Source of the DNA: a bacterium
Lineage (GTDB): Bacteria; Planctomycetota; Phycisphaerae; Phycisphaerales; UBA1924
DNA length: 50,728 nt
Assembly (NCBI GenBank): GCA_024743075.1
Contig: JANSXG010000002.1
Coordinates: 1-50,728 of the forward strand
Direction of reading: 5' to 3'
A program made the translations under genes and the position numbers. Under the pieces are notes generated by a model that was not told the origin of the DNA, made no database searches, and worked only from the letters and a program-made list of their open reading frames with translations. Positions 15,115-24,070 of the stretch are shown in pieces. The number at the start of each line of letters is the position of its first letter. Position 1 is the stretch's first letter.

Positions 15115-16959
15115 ATGTGGGTAGACGACGTTACTGACATCGATTTCGTCAATTTCACTAGCGTAGCTGACACCGTTGCCGAGGTGATACAGCGAGCCGA
15201 GGGACAACCGGTCTCGATTGGCGTTTCTGGGGCTTGGGGTGTCGGCAAGTCTTCGATGATCAGCCTGATCAAACATTCGATTGCCAAAAAGGATCTCAAT
15301 TCAAAATTTATCTTCGTGGATTTCAATGCATGGCTTTACCAAGGTTTTGATGATGTCCGCGCCGCTCTGCTCGAAATCATTGCCGAGAAGCTTAAGGATG
15401 TAGCGGAAGAACGACAGACTGGAATTGATAAGGCTAAGGAATTACTCGCCAGAGTTGACTGGCTGCGAGTAGTAAGGGCAACTGCAAGCAATGCCATCGC
15501 TTTGTCAATGGGCATGCCTCCGATGGGAATGCTTGGAGAGGCCTTTCGGCGCGGGAAAGCCATGGTCTCCAATGGGGTCACGGAAGATGATATTGATGCT
15601 GCTGGCGAGATGGCCGGTGAGATCAGTAGCTATCTAAGGCCGAAGCATGAAGAATCGCCTCCCCAAGCCATCCATGCTGTCAGATCGTGCTTTGAACAAA
15701 CGCTAGAGGAGCTTGGGGTCACATTAGTGGTACTAATTGACGACCTTGACAGGTGTCTGCCGGAAACCACCATATCGACACTCGAAGCAATTAGGCTCTT
15801 TCTGTTTCTCGATCATACTGCGTTCGTGATTGCAGCTGACAATGATATGATCAAAAATGCAGTCAGAAAGCACTTTGACGGTGTAAGTGATCAGCATGTA
15901 ACTAGCTACTTTGACAAGTTGATTCAGGTGCCCATAGGTGTACCGCCACTTGGTACGCAGGAGGTAAGAGCTTACTTAATGCTCTTGTACGTTGAATCAA
16001 GTGATATGGAGGATGAGGATAAGTCAAAAATACGCGCAGATGTAGTAAGCCAGCTTTCAAAAAGTTGGCAGGGACACCGCGTTGATCGAGCGTTCATGCA
16101 GACATTGGGACATCAGTATCCTGCATATCTGGTAGCCCGATTCGACGCTGCCGATCGGTTAGCACCCTTGATGACGACTGCTGAAGGCATTAAAGGCAAT
16201 CCTCGACTGATCAAGAGATTTCTGAACGCTCTGTCAATCCGTCTTTCGCTTGCGCATTCGCAAGGTGTGACTGTTGAGGAGACTGCTCTCACCAAGTTGC
16301 TTCTTTTCGAACGGTGCGGAGACCGCAAGGCGTACGCCGAGTTGGCAGAAGCGATTGCGAGTAGTGATGATGGAAAGCCGCTGTTCCTCTCAGGGTGGGA
16401 AAAGAGTGCGAGCGCGGGTGAAGAGATGGATCTCCCCCCGCACTGGGACTCTCCTTTTGCGCGAGCGTGGCTCGCATTGGCTCCGGAGTTGTCGGCCCTT
16501 GATCTTCGAGGTGCCTTGTATGTCAGTCGTGAGCACACACCTCTGATTACTCCAGAGGACCGTCTCTCGTCTGCGGGCATAGAAATCCTCACAGCTCTGC
16601 TCGACCACCCTGAAATGGCTGGCGGGCTGGCTCAAGATTTAGCTGGGCTGCAGCATGCAGAGCGAAGTGTGATTTTCGATCGTGTGCTCGAGCGTGCGCG
16701 TCTGATACAAGAATGGGGTATACCAGACGAGCTTGAGGCTTGCCTTGTCCTGTCGCGATCTGACGCATCTCTTGGCGATCGCCTGGCGGCATTTTTAGGC
16801 GAGCGACCAGCTGTTCAGTTGACACCGGCAATTGTGCAAAAGATATCAATGGAGCCATGGTCCAAGACGGTCTTCAAGCAATGGCAATCAGCGGATCCCT
16901 CTGAAGAAGTCAGCAGGGCCATCACGAGGGTATTGAAGGATGGGAACATCACAGTCTAG
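15115..16959 (+). CDS. qatA: QatA, KAP-family P-loop ATPase of the Qat anti-phage system
   Basis: 614 residues. Walker A is GAWGVGKSS at residues 39-47; after it FVDFNAWLYQ is the KAP-type 'F-NAW' strand. Residues about 105-150 (VRATASNAIALSMGMPP) are the hydrophobic insertion typical of KAP NTPases, and Walker B is LVVLIDD at 204-210, continuing LDRCLPE. The ATG at 15115 follows GAGGAGAG. KAP ATPases occur in several phage-defence systems. Here the following QatB-like, QueC-like and TatD-like genes identify Qat (QueC-like protein associated with ATPase and TatD DNase), reported to protect against phages by a mechanism not fully known. A candidate -10 (CATAAT) lies at 15048-15053. The gene has lower GC and uses TTA, ATA and AGA codons more than the flanking chromosome. 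Confidence 0.9.
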   Translation: MWVDDVTDIDFVNFTSVADTVAEVIQRAEGQPVSIGVSGAWGVGKSSMISLIKHSIAKKDLNSKFIFVDFNAWLYQGFDDVRAALLEIIAEKLKDVAEERQTGIDKAKELLARVDWLRVVRATASNAIALSMGMPPMGMLGEAFRRGKAMVSNGVTEDDIDAAGEMAGEISSYLRPKHEESPPQAIHAVRSCFEQTLEELGVTLVVLIDDLDRCLPETTISTLEAIRLFLFLDHTAFVIAADNDMIKNAVRKHFDGVSDQHVTSYFDKLIQVPIGVPPLGTQEVRAYLMLLYVESSDMEDEDKSKIRADVVSQLSKSWQGHRVDRAFMQTLGHQYPAYLVARFDAADRLAPLMTTAEGIKGNPRLIKRFLNALSIRLSLAHSQGVTVEETALTKLLLFERCGDRKAYAELAEAIASSDDGKPLFLSGWEKSASAGEEMDLPPHWDSPFARAWLALAPELSALDLRGALYVSREHTPLITPEDRLSSAGIEILTALLDHPEMAGGLAQDLAGLQHAERSVIFDRVLERARLIQEWGIPDELEACLVLSRSDASLGDRLAAFLGERPAVQLTPAIVQKISMEPWSKTVFKQWQSADPSEEVSRAITRVLKDGNITV

Positions 16960-17770
16960 TACCGGATCTCCATCTGGCGTACCGATGGTGCCTCCTTGGG
17001 TTGACGGGAGTGACGGAGAGATTCCTCCGCAGGCGGAGTCGCCCTCGGAAGATATCGATGATTCTGATGAAGCTATCGATAAGCCTCATCAACCAGAACA
17101 GTTAGCTCCAAAGGCACGGTTCTACTCAACGCGGATTGCTTTGGGGAAGTTCGCCGAGACTGGTGATCGCGCTCCAATGCAACGAGGGGTCGGTCGCTAC
17201 ATTGGGGCTGGCTTGGGGGGGACCCAAACTGCCGTCAGAAGATTTGGAGGTACGGCGACGGGTGCGTCTGCGCTGTACTCGGCCCTTGGTGGAACGTCGT
17301 CCGATCGGGACACTAAACTTGATAGAAATGTATTGGCAGGGCGAACGGCAAATCAGATCATCGCCGCTGTAGTAGAAGCAACCCGCCCCGTGGACGGTTC
17401 TTTGGATTCAGAAGCTAGTCGACAATCGATCAATGATGCGTTGTCTGATCTTTTGAAGCGGTACCCTGATACAGACTTGTTAAAGCTAACAGAAGAACAA
17501 CGTGTCTTTGTAGTGGAGAGATATGTTGCCTATGATGTGTACTTGAGATTTATGCTCGATGTCGGGCAGCATATTCAAGATAAATCACCAACCCGATCCA
17601 TAGCACTGTCTCGTCAGCGTCAGATACGTGAGTATATTCGCGAGGCAGTTGCAGCTTCATTTCGCACCATGCGGAATGCTGGTAGAACGCTGACGGGTGG
17701 CAACGTATCGTCTTTGGTGAGATCGGCGCTGGAAAGTGCCTTCGATGTTTTCGTAGGATTTTCAGAATGA
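16940..17770 (+). CDS. qatB: QatB, Qat system component of unknown biochemical role
   Basis: 276 residues, starting 20 bases inside qatA in another frame, so the two are probably translationally coupled. The N-terminus 'GTSQSSTGSPSGVPMVPPWV' is the low-complexity Ser/Gly/Pro opening typical of QatB proteins, followed by an acidic linker (about 30-50). The rest is probably helical, with a conserved block near 'RYIGAGLGGTQTAVRRFGGT' and a C-terminal helical part (about 170-276). No enzymatic motif is visible. The assignment rests on the N-terminal pattern, size and position between the KAP ATPase and QueC-like genes. Confidence 0.85.
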   Translation: MGTSQSSTGSPSGVPMVPPWVDGSDGEIPPQAESPSEDIDDSDEAIDKPHQPEQLAPKARFYSTRIALGKFAETGDRAPMQRGVGRYIGAGLGGTQTAVRRFGGTATGASALYSALGGTSSDRDTKLDRNVLAGRTANQIIAAVVEATRPVDGSLDSEASRQSINDALSDLLKRYPDTDLLKLTEEQRVFVVERYVAYDVYLRFMLDVGQHIQDKSPTRSIALSRQRQIREYIREAVAASFRTMRNAGRTLTGGNVSSLVRSALESAFDVFVGFSE

Positions 17771-19044
17771 AGCTCATCTGTCGACCTCACGGCACATCCT
17801 TGCCGACGCCAAGCCGTTGTGATCTTCCCGTTTTGATGTACGGCCGTTGCGAGTCAGGTCGCGCAATCTCTTGTGGCGCAGCGGTCGCGGAGCAGATAAG
17901 GCGGAAAGGTTATGTTCTGCCCCAGCGAGCATGGGACCTTTTGTCGTTGGCTCTCGCTGTGACGGCTGCTGACACAGCAATTGGCAGAGGACTAAGCCCG
18001 GATGGGTGGACTAGACAGTTAGATTTGGATATTGGAGTGCACGATCCAGACTTTTGGAATTCCCAAAAAGAATTGATTGGATCGATTCTCCAGTTTCTAA
18101 CTACTGATATCTGGAAAGTGCAATTCGTCCAAGCGTCATATGAGCCGAAACCTCCAAAGCATGTCGCTTTATGCGAAGAGAAGTCAGTCATGTTGCTGTC
18201 GGGGGGGCTGGACAGCTTGGTTGGCGCGCTGGATTTGGTTGCAGCAGGAATAAAGCCTGTCGCGGTTAGTCAGACAGTAAAGGGCGATGGTGAAAAGCAG
18301 TTGGTATTCGCAAGCAGCATAGGCGGGGGGTTGACACATCTGCAGCTGAATCACAATGTCAAGGCTCCGAAGGGCGCCGAAAGGTCACAGCGTGCGAGGT
18401 CATTTATTTTTCTGACTTATGGCGTGCTTGCTGCAACTGCGCTGCCAAATTATCAAGATAGTCCTCAACTTCCCATGTACGTGTGCGAGAATGGGTTAAT
18501 CGCAATCAATCCTCCGTTAACTGATACGCGAATAGGCAGCCTAAGTACTCGCACGACTCATCCTACATACCTGTCGAAGTTTCAGAAGCTTCTTGATAAC
18601 GCTAAGTTATTTGTTTCGATCCGCAACCCATATGAATTTAAGACTAAAGGTGAGATGCTCAGTGAGTGTGGGGATCAGGATTATTTGATCAATGCTGCGC
18701 ATGTCTCTACTAGTTGTGGTCGCTTTGCTCGGCATGGTATGAAACACTGTGGCCGTTGCGTTCCTTGTTTGATTCGCCGAGCAGCTTTCCAGCGATGGGA
18801 AGTGGCCGATAGGACACAGTATCTATTTGCTGATCTTTCAAAATCGGACAAGGATCACGCGCAGTTCGATGACGTCCGAGCTTTGTCAATGGCTGTGTCT
18901 CGTGCAAAAAATGAGGGCGTGGATGCTGTACTAGGAGCAAGCTTGCTGTCAGATGCAATCGATGATCCTGAGCCCTATCGTGGAGTGGTCGAGAGGGGTC
19001 TAGCTGAAGTGCGTCATTTGTTGGAAGGGTACCGGGTGCGATGA
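17767..19044 (+). CDS. qatC: QatC, QueC-like PP-loop protein of the Qat system
   Basis: 425 residues; the start overlaps the qatB stop as ATGA. The PP-loop ATP-binding motif is LLSGGLDS (about 143-150), as in QueC, the 7-cyano-7-deazaguanine synthase. A QueC-like zinc cluster is present: Cys at 317, 328, 331 and 334 (STSCGR, then KHCGRCVPC). The first 130 residues precede the PP-loop and are absent from housekeeping QueC, which is about 230 residues long. QueC converts carboxy-deazaguanine to the nitrile with ATP. The QatC substrate is not established here, though both ATP-binding and zinc motifs appear intact. No queD, queE or queF lies nearby, which argues against a queuosine-pathway role. 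The region is AT-rich compared with the host. Confidence 0.9.
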   Translation: MKLICRPHGTSLPTPSRCDLPVLMYGRCESGRAISCGAAVAEQIRRKGYVLPQRAWDLLSLALAVTAADTAIGRGLSPDGWTRQLDLDIGVHDPDFWNSQKELIGSILQFLTTDIWKVQFVQASYEPKPPKHVALCEEKSVMLLSGGLDSLVGALDLVAAGIKPVAVSQTVKGDGEKQLVFASSIGGGLTHLQLNHNVKAPKGAERSQRARSFIFLTYGVLAATALPNYQDSPQLPMYVCENGLIAINPPLTDTRIGSLSTRTTHPTYLSKFQKLLDNAKLFVSIRNPYEFKTKGEMLSECGDQDYLINAAHVSTSCGRFARHGMKHCGRCVPCLIRRAAFQRWEVADRTQYLFADLSKSDKDHAQFDDVRALSMAVSRAKNEGVDAVLGASLLSDAIDDPEPYRGVVERGLAEVRHLLEGYRVR

Positions 19045-19772
19045 TCGATCTGCATTGTCACATTGATCTTTATCCTGATCCGCAAATGGTCATTCGTAAA
19101 TGTTTGTCGAAATCAATTTTTGTCCTTTCGGTGACTACTACGCCTCAAGCTTGGCCTATTTCGTCAAATATTGTATCTATGCATTCAAAGATGCCAGCGG
19201 CACTCGGACTTCACCCCCAGCTCGCAGGGTCGCGACGGTCTGAAGTCGATTTATTTGACAGTCTCATTGGCGAGACATCGTGGTTAGGGGAAATTGGGCT
19301 GGATGGGGCAGCGGAGTTTTCCCATACTTGGCAAGATCAGCTATTTGTGTTTGAGCACATTCTCAAAAGTGCCTCGTATGATGGTGGGAAAATTATGTCA
19401 ATTCATAGCCGACGGGCTGCCAGGGATGTCCTCGGCGTGCTGAGGCGATTCCCCGATGCGGGCGTGCCTGTTTTGCACTGGTTTTCCGGTACGCTAGCAG
19501 AGCTTCAAGAAGCGATTGACATGGGTTGCTGGTTCAGTGTTGGCTCACCAATGATGCACTCAAAGAGTGGGCGAGCTTTGATTGCTCGCATTCCCAAAAC
19601 TCGCTTGCTGACTGAGTCCGATGGGCCGTTTGTCCAGCATTCGGGTGGGCCTGCCTATCCGTGGCAGGTGATAGAAACCAGTGCGGAGCTCTCCAGGGTT
19701 TGGGGCGTAGATCCAAAGGTCGTTTCCGCACAACTCGAGGACAATCTCGCGTGTTTGCTGTCAAGTATCTGA
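19041..19772 (+). CDS. qatD: QatD, TatD-like metal-dependent nuclease of the Qat system
   Basis: 243 residues; ATGA overlap with qatC. All expected TatD metal ligands are visible: HCH at residues 5-7, Glu84 in GEIGLD, His122 in IHSRR, His146 in LHWFSG and Asp194 in TESDGP. The protein should therefore be an active metal-dependent hydrolase, probably a DNase. TatD enzymes act as 3'-5' exonucleases or endonucleases. In Qat, this nuclease is thought to be the effector or a processing enzyme (inference). Length is close to housekeeping TatD (about 260). It closes the qat operon; 145 bases with a candidate promoter separate it from the regulator gene. Confidence 0.9.
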   Translation: MIDLHCHIDLYPDPQMVIRKCLSKSIFVLSVTTTPQAWPISSNIVSMHSKMPAALGLHPQLAGSRRSEVDLFDSLIGETSWLGEIGLDGAAEFSHTWQDQLFVFEHILKSASYDGGKIMSIHSRRAARDVLGVLRRFPDAGVPVLHWFSGTLAELQEAIDMGCWFSVGSPMMHSKSGRALIARIPKTRLLTESDGPFVQHSGGPAYPWQVIETSAELSRVWGVDPKVVSAQLEDNLACLLSSI

Positions 19773-20295: not shown

Positions 20296-20501
20296 GCCAA
20301 CTAAAGAAGCCAAGAGAACTCTCACGTCTTCTCACTCTTGATGAGGTCGCCAATCGGCTCGCGGTTAGTCGACGGACCATCGATCGATTGATCGCTGAGG
20401 GCGAACTCCCAAGATCCGTGAAGATCGGGGCATCGTCACGAATGCCCGAGGAAGACCTGCGGCTATACATCGAACGCCAGTTACGGAAGCGGGGGGGCTG
20501 A
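20292..20501 (+). CDS. Excisionase-type helix-turn-helix protein
   Basis: 69 residues, overlapping the upstream gene (ATGA) and the integrase start (TGATG, one shared base). The core LTLDEVANRLAVSRRTIDRL, followed by IAEGELPRSVKIG and PEEDLRLYIERQL, is the winged helix-turn-helix pattern of the excise/AlpA/MerR-like family. Position directly before int and small size support excisionase: a DNA-bending factor that directs recombination towards excision. The arm-like repeats at 13594 and 21595 are candidate sites for it or for the integrase. Confidence 0.82.
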   Translation: MSQLKKPRELSRLLTLDEVANRLAVSRRTIDRLIAEGELPRSVKIGASSRMPEEDLRLYIERQLRKRGG

Positions 20502-21835
20502 TGCCTTATCAAGTCTTCCAGCCGACACGCATGAAGAACGGAAAGCGTGTTCGATCGCCGCTTTACTCGATGAAGTATCGCTTTGAACCTCACGAGCGCT
20601 ACAAGCGAATCCCGCTCAAGACAACCGACAAGCGGGTTGCCGAGAAGAAGGCGGCAGAGATTTACCGGGAGATGGAACGCGAGCGCGAGGGCATACTCGC
20701 ACCGCGTGTCCAGCGTGATGCTGCAGGGATGCCGATCGCGGATCTGCTTCGCGAATTCGTGGACGAACTCGAGCTTCGAGGACGGTCAAGAGACTATCGG
20801 CGGAAAGTCGAACAGCGATGCCAGGCAGTCGTCGACGCCACAGGCTGGCGGTTGCTCCGTGAAGTCGACTCTGATGAGTTCCGATCATGGCGGCGGGGGA
20901 AATCCCGAACGGTCTCGCCGAGAACGCTCAACCACTACACCGATTCACTGCGGAACTTCTTCGGCTGGCTGGTCGAGACTGAGCGACTCACGCACAATCC
21001 TCTGGCCTCGATCACACCCGTAGAGTCACGAGGTCGAGAGAAGAACAAGCGGCGGGCCTTGACCGATGCGGAGTCTCGCGAACTCGTCGCGACCTCCGGC
21101 GAGCGGTCGCTGATCTACATGGTGGCACTGCGGACCGGACTGCGGCGGAATGAGATCCGCACGCTCCGCTGGTCAGATGTCCTGCTCGATGGCGAGCAGC
21201 CCCGCATAGTTGTCAGAGCGTCAAACGCGAAGTCGAAGCGTGAAGAGGCCGTGCCCCTGTCCGATGAACTCGCCAGCGAACTCAAGCGGATCAAGCCTGG
21301 ACCAGATGCGTCCGGCAAGGTCTTTCGCCGTGGGATGCCTTCACACCACACCTTCCGCCGAGACTTGGTGGCTGCTGGGATCGCTCATACGGACCGCGAG
21401 GGCCGCCGGGTCGACTTCCATGCCCTGCGGCACACCTTCGGCACGAGCCTCGCCAAGGCGGGCGTGCCGCTCCAGGTCGCCATGCGGCTGATGAGGCACA
21501 CCGATCCGAAGCTGACGGCGCGGGTCTATGTCGATGCGGGCCAGCTACCGACCCACGAGGCGATCGGTTCCCTGCCTTCGCTGGGTGCAAAAAGCGCACA
21601 CCAGAGCGCACACGAGGGCGCACATATTCGGGTCGCGGACGGTGTCGGGGAGTCGTCGGCTGTCGCGAAGATGAAACCCGAGAGCAACGAAAATATCCCG
21701 TCAATTAAGCAAAAAGGCGTGCCGAAGCACGCCCAGTCGCCCGCTGTCGCGAGTCGTCGAAGTAGTGGAGCCGGGGGGAATCGAACCCCCGTGTCGGAAC
21801 AGTCCGCGTGCCGCTTCTACGCGTGTAGTCGCTGA
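20501..21835 (+). CDS. int: Tyrosine recombinase (integrase) running through attR into tmRNA
   Basis: 444 residues. The N-terminal part has an AP2-like region (about 10-60) and a SAM-like core-binding domain (about 78-170). The catalytic domain carries Arg215 (TGLRRNEI), a Lys in AKSKREEAVPL (about 246), His307 and Arg310 (FHALRH), His333 (MRHTDP) and Tyr343 (ARVYVD): the full active set. After residue 360 the sequence is low-complexity (AHQSAHEGAH and onward). Residues 421-429 (SSGAGGNRT) are encoded by the att core, and the last 15 residues and stop come from DNA antisense to tmRNA. The natural C-terminus is therefore accidental in the integrated state; in a circle the frame continues into the 13552-13936 tail. 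Expected reaction: site-specific recombination between the element and the ssrA 3' end. Confidence 0.93.
   Translation: MPYQVFQPTRMKNGKRVRSPLYSMKYRFEPHERYKRIPLKTTDKRVAEKKAAEIYREMEREREGILAPRVQRDAAGMPIADLLREFVDELELRGRSRDYRRKVEQRCQAVVDATGWRLLREVDSDEFRSWRRGKSRTVSPRTLNHYTDSLRNFFGWLVETERLTHNPLASITPVESRGREKNKRRALTDAESRELVATSGERSLIYMVALRTGLRRNEIRTLRWSDVLLDGEQPRIVVRASNAKSKREEAVPLSDELASELKRIKPGPDASGKVFRRGMPSHHTFRRDLVAAGIAHTDREGRRVDFHALRHTFGTSLAKAGVPLQVAMRLMRHTDPKLTARVYVDAGQLPTHEAIGSLPSLGAKSAHQSAHEGAHIRVADGVGESSAVAKMKPESNENIPSIKQKGVPKHAQSPAVASRRSSGAGGNRTPVSEQSACRFYACSR
21595..21624. repeat. Right subterminal repeats: three CGCACA at 12-base steps
   Basis: CGCACA at 21595, 21607 and 21619. The first 22 bases match 13594-13615 with one mismatch. 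The block lies within the 3' part of int, 138 bases before the attR core, and encodes AHQSAHEGAH. Likely arm-type binding sites; alternatively a coding repeat only, but the match in the non-homologous left end argues for a DNA role. Confidence 0.6.
21716..21733 (-). terminator. Element-encoded intrinsic terminator for tmRNA
   Basis: On the minus strand: GGCGTGC, TTCG loop, GCACGCC, then TTTTT. This is a textbook intrinsic terminator with a UUCG tetraloop, 33 bases past the tmRNA 3' end. It lies inside the int coding region (residues about 405-412). It replaces the original terminator, now displaced to 13495-13520. Confidence 0.85.
21763..21786. repeat. attR core (3' end of intact tmRNA gene)
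   Basis: 24 bases identical to attL at 13528-13551. It spans the 3' side of the tmRNA T-arm and acceptor stem and is read through in frame by int. The exact crossover point within the 24 bases cannot be told from sequence. Confidence 0.93.
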
Positions 21836-22110
21836 TTTCATCTCGCTCGCTGAGCCGAGCAGGACACCCTGCTCAGCGCGCCAGCCTCAGAAAGTTCTCG
21901 CCGATCGGCGCTGAGACGCCGCCTTTCGGCCAGCCCGATGTCATTGAGCGTCACCCTATCGGGCGTCGGACGACGCTCAGGCCACTTTATTAGGCGGCCA
22001 TAGCAAACTGCGGTTCGGCAGTTATAAGTGTGAACGCTTGATAACGCGGTTGCATTCGCCGCGACGCGCCACGACACACATTCCCTGTCCGGTCGATGCC
22101 GGTCGGCCCC
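21766..22110 (-). ncRNA. ssrA: Transfer-messenger RNA (tmRNA)
   Basis: The 5' end GGGGCCG pairs with CGGCTCC at the 3' end (seven pairs, one G-U). The 3' part has a T-arm with GTTCGATTCC. The tag frame on the minus strand runs 22019-21987: GCC GAA CCG CAG TTT GCT ATG GCC GCC then two TAA stops, encoding AEPQFAMAA, with TAACT just before the resume codon, comparable to UAGUC in E. coli. This fits the common A-x-x-x-(F/Y)-A-x-A-A tag consensus. The terminal CCA is not encoded (CTA follows the discriminator). tmRNA with SmpB rescues stalled ribosomes and tags products for proteolysis. The mature sequence appears intact despite the integrated element; only the downstream terminator differs. Confidence 0.9.
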
Positions 22111-22130: not shown

Positions 22131-22157
22131 AGTATAGCCGCCCGGCTCGGGTCTCAA
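22131..22157 (-). promoter_or_regulatory. Candidate ssrA promoter
   Basis: Minus strand: TTGAGA (22157-22152), 15 bases, TATACT (22136-22131). Transcription would begin near 22124, giving a leader of about 14 bases before the mature 5' end for RNase P to remove. Spacing is slightly short. It overlaps the stop codon of the FlgI-like gene. Confidence 0.5.
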
Positions 22158-24070
22158 CGGCTTGGCGGTGGATCGTCTTCAGATCGCTCCTTGGGCGCGG
22201 GACGCGGCAGCGGGACGACGTAGGGGTTGTTCGAGAGGTCCCGCTCGGTGGTTTCTTCCGACTCACCGGCCGCTTCCGCGCGCGGTTCGAACGGAGCGGC
22301 GTCGTCCGGGGCAAGACCCGGTCGTTCGTCGGTGAAGCGGCTCGCCAGCCGTCGAATATTTTCGATGTTCTCGCGGTCGTCTTCGGGGAAGAAGGTCGCC
22401 GGAATCGCACCGTCGCTCGCCATGAGATACAGCACGGTGACAATCTCGCTGTATCGCATGTTCAGGCCGTCCTCGAGAAGATCGGGGGTGGGCTCGAAAG
22501 CCATGCGGCGGATCATCGATGCGAGGTCACGATCGGCCTTGACGAGTCGGGGTGCAACACGAGAATTCGGCCGGTAGAAAATCTCCGCTTCCGGCTGGTC
22601 CGGGTCGGCCTTCATGAGCAGTCGGCCGTCCCACGCGTCGACGAAGACTTCGGGCAGTATTTCCATGTTCATCCCGAAGAGCACGATTCGTGGGACGTTG
22701 CTCTGTGTGACGTAGATCGTCGGCTGCGTCGACGGGACGATATCGAGCACGAACTTGTCACCCATCGGGCGTGTGATGATGCGGGCGTCGTCCAGGCGCT
22801 TGAGTGCCTCTAAGGCCGTGACCCGCAGAGCGAGGTCTGGGTTGTTGAGGTGGGTGCGCAGGTACTCTCGGATGCCTGGGTCGCGGTTTACGGGCAAGCG
22901 CGTCAGCCAGCGCATCGCGTCGTCGCGGAGACCAATGGGTCCGTTCTCGATCAATTCCTCGATGTGGGGGCGGACCGTCAGATCACCGGCCCACGCACCC
23001 GCTTCGATCGCGGCGAGGCGTGGGATCGACTCGGGGTGCGTGTACAGCGGTCGAAGATAGGAGATCGCCGGTTCGCCGAGGGCTCGCAGGCACCAGCTGA
23101 GTTGCGTGGCGAGTTCCGGCTGTTCCACCAGCGCGTCGGCGTATCGCCGGGCCCACTCTTCCGGGAAGGCCTGGTCGATCCGGGTGAATCGCAGGAGGTT
23201 GATGAAGACCTCCGGCTCGTCGCGATACTGAATGGGCACATTGACGTAGATCAACTCGTCGCTTCGCCCGATCGCCACATCGCCACGCACACCCGTTTGG
23301 AACTTGTTGTTGATCGCGCGGGTGATCTCGCGTGCTCGGGCGTGCGACGGATTGTCGAGCAGGAGGCGGATGGGCTCGGCTTCTTTGATTCTCCCGCCGG
23401 CCAGCACGCGGCCGCGACTGCGCTGAATGGTGTCGGACTCCGCTTCGCTCCCACGCTCGGCAAACGCGAAGGGATTGATGAAGACGGGGCCTCCGGCGTC
23501 CGCCACCGCGCGGGTGTCCGGCGCGGAGGGCGAAACCACGCCGCGGCGGAGGTCGGTCGTGTAGAGGCGTCCGCCCTCGAGGCTGGTGACGCCGCTCCCG
23601 TTCAGAGCTGATACCTCCACATCAAACGTCGCGTGCATCGGGAGGCCGGCGGGGATGTACGCTTGGACCAGCACCACTGCTGTATCCGGGCTGTCGATCA
23701 ACTGAGAAGGCGAGATCCGTGCGAGGGGCCCCGCTTCGGGCGCGCCGGTCCCAACGCCGTACTTGCGCATCTCGTCTTCGAGCACGGACCGGACGCCGAT
23801 CGGCACGGTTCCCGACCCGGTGCCGTCCAGTCCGACGACGAGCCCGTAGCCCGAAACGATGGTGCCCTCTGTGCCCCGAATGGTGACCTCTGAGCCGACG
23901 GTCCCACGGAGGATGGACTGGGTGTCGCGCACGACAACCGGCACCTGCACGGTACTGGCCGGGCGCTGCGGCGTCTTGCTGCAGGCGACCGCGAGCGCGG
24001 CGGACGCGAGAAGCAGGGCGGCCACAGCGCGAACCGGCCACTGCTTAACTGAACTTGAGCGGGTCAACAA
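22154..24070 (-). CDS. FlgI-like (flagellar P-ring) lipoprotein with extended C-terminus
   Basis: 638 residues beginning at TTG 24070, seven bases after AAGGGAG. The signal segment AVAALLLASAALAVACSKTP suggests a lipoprotein, with Cys about 30, although the lipobox is imperfect. Residues about 45-290 resemble FlgI: IVSGYGLVVGLDGTGSG, VVLVQAYIPAG, FDVEVSALNGSGVTSLEGGRLYTTDL and later YVNVPIQYRDEP. FlgI is about 370 residues and polymerises as the periplasmic P-ring around the flagellar rod. Residues about 300-420 look like helical HEAT-type repeats (EWARRYADALVEQPELA, RVTALEALKRLDDARI). The remaining 200 residues have no recognised domain, and the end is Pro/Glu-rich. No other flagellar gene is in the window, so a flagellar function is uncertain; a P-ring-like envelope ring in another machine is possible. 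Confidence 0.72.
   Translation of the reverse strand: MLTRSSSVKQWPVRAVAALLLASAALAVACSKTPQRPASTVQVPVVVRDTQSILRGTVGSEVTIRGTEGTIVSGYGLVVGLDGTGSGTVPIGVRSVLEDEMRKYGVGTGAPEAGPLARISPSQLIDSPDTAVVLVQAYIPAGLPMHATFDVEVSALNGSGVTSLEGGRLYTTDLRRGVVSPSAPDTRAVADAGGPVFINPFAFAERGSEAESDTIQRSRGRVLAGGRIKEAEPIRLLLDNPSHARAREITRAINNKFQTGVRGDVAIGRSDELIYVNVPIQYRDEPEVFINLLRFTRIDQAFPEEWARRYADALVEQPELATQLSWCLRALGEPAISYLRPLYTHPESIPRLAAIEAGAWAGDLTVRPHIEELIENGPIGLRDDAMRWLTRLPVNRDPGIREYLRTHLNNPDLALRVTALEALKRLDDARIITRPMGDKFVLDIVPSTQPTIYVTQSNVPRIVLFGMNMEILPEVFVDAWDGRLLMKADPDQPEAEIFYRPNSRVAPRLVKADRDLASMIRRMAFEPTPDLLEDGLNMRYSEIVTVLYLMASDGAIPATFFPEDDRENIENIRRLASRFTDERPGLAPDDAAPFEPRAEAAGESEETTERDLSNNPYVVPLPRPAPKERSEDDPPPSR

Follow-up and report, generated by a model that had tools for sequence, protein, structure and literature searches.

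An FlgI-like lipoprotein with an inserted HEAT-repeat arm is retained across Phycisphaerae, including genomes without FlgH

What does a homolog of the flagellar P-ring protein FlgI do at a locus where no flagellar gene was seen around it? Canonical FlgI forms a 26-fold ring in the peptidoglycan. In the 50,728-nt stretch of DNA analyzed here (hereafter the window; contig JANSXG010000002.1 of assembly GCA_024743075.1, Phycisphaerae), one gene encodes a FlgI-like lipoprotein that we refer to, together with its family members, as the orphan (Table 1). Its neighbors are DJ-1/PfpI, Obg, a tmRNA and an integrase, in agreement with a preliminary description of the window made from its sequence, which had seen no flagellar genes around it. 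A tblastn search of the window with 12 flagellar proteins yielded no match, but it missed the FlgI-like gene as well; it is therefore insensitive, and we give it no weight. We found no description of the orphan in the open-licence literature that we searched (FlgI/P-ring paralogues, Planctomycetes, SMC/FtsK/FtsZ and condensin).

Gene product and export signal

The protein matched the FlgI profile PF02119 over residues 62-299, scoring 76.1 bits where 25.3 are required and covering profile positions 6-226 of 343, which bears out the P-ring-like region proposed earlier, and stayed below the cut-offs of the NCBIfam FlgI models NF003676 (62.5 of 300 bits) and NF009430 (32.8 of 557 bits). It is 1.6-1.75 times as long as FlgI (395 aa for the canonical protein of the same genome and 365 aa in E. 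coli), hence clearly longer, as first described, with the wording “nearly twice” being slightly generous. The lipid anchoring that had been raised as a possibility is backed by a signal peptide ending in a lipobox cysteine, identified by its alignment column: Cys30 is conserved in 21/21 relatives (alignment A1) and in 44/45 rows of a second alignment (A4). In one orphan from outside the class (L151) no evident lipobox cysteine was found ahead of the FlgI region, and the anchor may not be universal in the family.

Table 1. Positions of the orphan gene, of its predicted domains and of adjacent features in the window.
Feature	Position	Strand	Remarks
Orphan FlgI-like lipoprotein gene	22154..24070	-	638 aa, TTG start
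Signal peptide and lipobox, residues 1-30 (Cys30)	23981..24070	-	Cys column conserved in alignments
FlgI IRU and OR (upper inner-ring and outer-ring) domains, residues 56-299	23174..23905	-	Corresponds to Salmonella FlgI precursor 20-245
HEAT-repeat insertion, residues 301-429	22784..23170	-	Family profile and model
FlgI IRL (lower inner-ring) domain, residues 447-563	22382..22732	-	Corresponds to Salmonella FlgI precursor 248-365; by structure
Low-confidence C-terminal tail, residues 570-638	22157..22363	-	pLDDT mostly 39-68
tmRNA gene	21765..22110	-	Directly downstream of the orphan, at the place of smc in most relatives
Tyrosine integrase	20501..21835	+	Abuts the tmRNA gene

Domain architecture and structural models

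We used the window protein and 44 relatives as input to AlphaFold2 and obtained a model with a mean pLDDT of 85.7 and a pTM of 0.78. Structure prediction had been proposed as a check of the FlgI region, and the N-terminal part of the model (residues 56-299) superposed on Salmonella FlgI precursor residues 20-245 with Z scores of 14.7-15.1 and an rmsd of 8.9-9.7, a high value that we read as domain movement. FlgI chain numbering was taken as that of the precursor, as its last residue is 365 and E. coli FlgI is 365 residues long. Submitted to Foldseek, the full model was aligned with 7bgl and 7nvg across 517-519 columns.

The C-terminal domain was analyzed alone (residues 432-568, pLDDT 93). In a structural realignment with 997 chains, limited to the best 1000 of Foldseek, the top three were all FlgI, aligned at residues 248-365 with Z scores of 5.7, 5.3 and 5.2, a modest level, and the next chain reached 3.6; FlgI was absent among the best 50 matches listed by Foldseek itself for this domain. 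We thus recognized the lower inner-ring domain by structure (Z 5.2-5.7), the sequence evidence being weak: comparison of a C-half profile with FlgI using hhalign gave a probability of 4-7% and an E-value of 0.005-0.01, a score that none of 60 column shuffles equaled. What the preliminary description called a 200-residue unknown domain hence resolves into residues that match FlgI by structure (447-563) and a tail modeled at low confidence (about 570-638).

Between the two FlgI-like parts lies an arm of about 130-147 residues. Taken alone, the window protein scored 22.4 bits with Pfam for HEAT repeats, below the cut-off of 27.7. The family profile matched 6veh with an E-value of 3.9e-11, several alphaRep chains scoring better, and model residues 301-451 showed the HEAT fold, superposing on 6veh with a Z score of 10.9 and an rmsd of 2.9 over 128 aligned residues. 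The HEAT-like repeats of the preliminary description, which we place at residues 300-430, are therefore below the cut-off in the single protein and clear by family profile and model. The HEAT proteins that it matched (PF13646; 6veh and alphaRep) carry the fold as a stand-alone unit, whereas in the orphan it is inserted inside another fold. On the published map of mature FlgI (OR, 1-11 and 160-230; IRU, 12-159; IRL, 231-346; available text of PMC8298488), the insertion point corresponds to residues 226-229, at the OR/IRL border. This position, together with the presence of all three domains, indicates a complete FlgI fold that is split at a domain border. As modeled, the orphan is such a fold, interrupted by the HEAT arm where OR meets IRL and followed by a disordered or low-confidence tail. 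It shares with FlgI (PF02119; Salmonella structures 7bgl, 7cbl and 7nvg) three domains in identical order and the core motifs GYGLVVGL and SLxGGxL, and differs from it by the lipobox, the HEAT insertion and a polar FlgH pocket.

FlgH-binding and rod-facing surfaces

To compare contact surfaces, 65 orphans and 12 FlgI proteins of the class were aligned with E. coli FlgI (NC_000913), taking the FlgH-pocket residues of Salmonella FlgI from the accessible part of PMC8298488. Orphans do not have the hydrophobic FlgH-binding pocket, and their pockets are mostly polar: position 46 is Glu in 52/65, position 103 is Tyr or Trp in 55/65 and position 104 is Thr in 53/65, with the position of Leu22 remaining hydrophobic in all 65. 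The rod-facing pair Lys63 and Lys95 of FlgI is not conserved in orphans either. At position 63, 9 of the 12 class FlgI proteins have K, and K or R occurs in only 13 of the 65 orphans; position 95 does not discriminate, with R in 2/65 orphans and K in 2/12 class FlgI proteins. As the residues that replace the pocket are themselves conserved, the alignment suggests that they form the surface for a different partner. In the orphan, a new domain at a ring-domain border is thus accompanied by a rewritten flagellar contact surface.

Occurrence in genomes with and without flagella

The genome of the window encodes a second, canonical FlgI on another contig (C216), in a flagellar operon in which, besides FlgH, the neighbors read from the ORFs are presumably FlgL, FlgK, FlgA- and FlgG-like proteins, FliW and CsrA; FlgH and FHIPEP of this genome sit on contigs other than that of the orphan. 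The separate canonical flgI and flagellar operon that the preliminary description had proposed to look for are therefore both present. The opposite case, in which the orphan would be the sole FlgI and have flagellar genes nearby in relatives, does not apply, given this second flgI and the neighbor in relatives, which is smc.

We surveyed 150 evenly drawn Phycisphaerae genomes and detected the orphan in 147, FlgH in 105 and FHIPEP (FlhA-type export) in 113, with both FlgH and FHIPEP absent in 36. All 45 FlgH-less genomes carry the orphan, and each has exactly one PF02119 match. Three genomes that keep the orphan without FlgH and FHIPEP (G018, G063 and G069) are each assembled as one contig, with a completeness of 98-99%. 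FHIPEP was retained in nine FlgH-less genomes, where it perhaps belongs to a type III secretion system or the assembly has a gap. The orphan was missed in three genomes, namely the only one without an smc match (G016), one with smc cut by the contig start (G098) and one that is 74% complete (G058), defects that suggest gaps in the assembly.

In a tree of 37 rows, which omits 5 orphans from outside the class, orphans and canonical FlgI proteins were separated by a single branch with support 100/99. Long branches led to the canonical FlgI of the window's own genome and to two orphans from outside the class. The branch of the canonical FlgI at L003:7764-8951 (minus strand) was very long, at 2.63 changes per column. 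The tree sets the orphans apart from canonical FlgI as a single family, and we regard the orphan as a paralogue of FlgI that no longer belongs to the flagellum. Unlike FlgI, it lies outside the flagellar operon and is retained without flagella, flgI being located elsewhere in the window's genome. By its fold, the orphan belongs to the FlgI superfamily, and its context, the NCBIfam cut-offs and its contact surface place it outside flagellar FlgI. A flagellum-specific ring protein hence persists among the core genes of flagellum-less bacteria, and databases may label orphans “flagellar P-ring protein”, with the result that flagella would be over-called.

Genomic neighborhoods

Neighborhoods were compared for the best 80 of 144 loci plus the window, a set that is tilted to near relatives, and smc was identified by Pfam on one representative, other neighbors likewise being named from one representative each. 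In 73 of these 81 loci, the chromosome-organizing gene smc occupied the downstream flank on the strand of the orphan, the next commonest neighbor being found in 23; among the eight loci without smc, two contigs (L085 and L094) stop within 0.5 kb. The gap between the orphan stop and the smc start, available for 70 loci, was 49-246 nt in 69 and 2258 nt in one (median 140), and gaps of 49-246 nt make separate promoters possible. Other neighbors were a class II ribonucleotide reductase (20 of 81 loci), dCTP deaminase (18) and FtsK (14). No flagellar, secretin or pilus gene was found among the recurrent neighbors identified.

Across the class survey, 137 of the 150 genomes could be scored for both genes: these were adjacent in 76, within 1.6-4.3 kb in 4 and elsewhere in 57. 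The adjacent pairs were distributed over FlgH-positive (56) and FlgH-negative (20) genomes. The pair was never found in families f7, f8, f18 and f21 (43 genomes, single contigs included), among which no neighbor recurred across families, and NrdR was present in 3 of 26 loci without the pair. In a selection of 20 loci chosen mostly for long contigs, the pair was present in 14, including 6 of 7 from outside the class. The genome of the window has smc on a contig other than that of the orphan.

Proposed role and alternative readings

The near-universality of the orphan, which extends to flagellum-less genomes, and its frequent adjacency to smc indicate that it probably fills an unrecognised core role in the cell envelope. 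Our main reading, to which we give a probability of about 0.55, is that the orphan is a collar or scaffold derived from the P-ring, anchored by lipid and embedded in the wall, whose core role is non-flagellar. The protein, exported with its lipobox signal, would be lipid-anchored, probably to the outer membrane; its P-ring domains would join laterally to form a ring or arc within the wall, with neither FlgH nor a rod involved; the HEAT arm would offer a docking surface for a partner; and the resulting collar would serve a core envelope process. The orphan's P-ring half could in principle build a wall collar similar to that of the LP ring of FlgH and FlgI, although 45 of the 150 genomes offer it no FlgH to pair with.

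A ring in another envelope machine, the other suggestion of the preliminary description, is compatible with the retention of all three P-ring domains. Among other readings, the orphan might serve as the collar of a machine built on a secretin, either type II secretion or a type IV pilus, and surround the secretin in the wall as the P-ring surrounds the rod. A partner would always be available, since secretins were detected in 150/150 class genomes, and the FlgI outer-ring domain is described in the available text of PMC8298488 as resembling secretin N3 domains and probably touching the peptidoglycan. The same universality prevents co-occurrence from discriminating, however, and the recurrent neighbors include no identified secretin or pilus gene, so we regard a secretin collar as rather unlikely. 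Somewhat further down we place an envelope tether or chaperone that would act as a monomer or small oligomer, with the FlgI domains kept solely as wall-binding modules and clients bound by the HEAT arm. For such a protein, HEAT repeats, a lipid anchor and a domain that putatively binds peptidoglycan would suffice, and the loss of the FlgH pocket and of the rod-facing Lys63 fits it, but the orphan retains the IRL domain, the site of P-ring subunit contacts in the accessible part of PMC8298488, and we hold this reading to be unlikely. That the orphan is an accessory component of the flagellar motor, the “lineage-specific motor part” of the preliminary description, is highly improbable despite the FlgI homology and the presence of FlgH in 105/150 genomes, as the orphan is kept by 45/45 FlgH-less genomes, including the three nearly complete single contigs without FHIPEP, has no flagellar gene among its identified recurrent neighbors and has lost the FlgH pocket.

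Returning to the wall-embedded collar, we tentatively propose, as the most likely single choice, that its process is coupled to the cycle of the chromosome or of division, on account of the neighbors smc, FtsK and those of nucleotide metabolism. Put in its fullest form, a lipid-anchored, P-ring-derived ring with a HEAT docking arm would link the envelope with cytokinesis or the segregation of chromosomes in the FtsZ-less Planctomycetota, a proposal that as a whole we consider a long shot. If true, such a coupling would account for the near-universality in Phycisphaerae, the independence from flagella and the long-standing pairing with smc.

FtsZ, division and the wider phylum

Matches to the FtsZ profile PF00091 were found in 6/150 class genomes, all of them weak, and in 4/199 genomes of the phylum, a near-absence that agrees with the accessible part of PMC6952346. 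Weak tubulin/FtsZ-like matches occur in families f19 and f23 (G035, G042, G049, G087, G110 and G116), with E-values of 7e-9 to 1e-12. How FtsZ-less planctomycetes divide is presented as an open question in the available text of PMC6952346 and PMC5147048, and if the orphan acts in division or segregation, it would provide a named, testable gene for this process. FtsK is apparently essential in Planctopirus limnophila (PMC6952346, same text) and critical for the FtsZ-less divisome of chlamydiae (PMC11975371, as far as its accessible text goes). The full-length orphan was absent from most sampled Planctomycetota lineages outside the class; the phylum tally of 185/199 mixes in canonical FlgI and HEAT proteins and is not an orphan count. 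As FtsZ is also missing from lineages that have no full-length orphan, we rejected the orphan as a general FtsZ substitute.

Crateriform structures are envelope pits found in the same phylum as the orphan, and we know of no account of their protein composition in planctomycetes. They are reported not to have been observed in Phycisphaerae (available text of PMC7783415), the class in which the orphan is almost universal, and this weakens the orphan as a candidate component of these structures.

Other features of the window and of class genomes

The tmRNA gene encodes the tag AEPQFAMAA and overlaps, at its 3' end, with the end of the integrase ORF. This tyrosine integrase is the edge of an integrated element and lies outside the orphan system. 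A complete QatABCD anti-phage system was located at 15115-19772 on the plus strand (PADLOC; QatA, 2.1e-144; QatB, 1.5e-37; QatC, 2.6e-104; QatD, 1.9e-85), adjoined by a replication-initiation-like ORF and the tyrosine integrase, and this region is apparently an integrated defence island at the tmRNA. In many class genomes (G044:C18, G136:C22, G011:C132 and others), secretin domains were found within very long open frames of up to 6169 aa, which are possible giant secretins.
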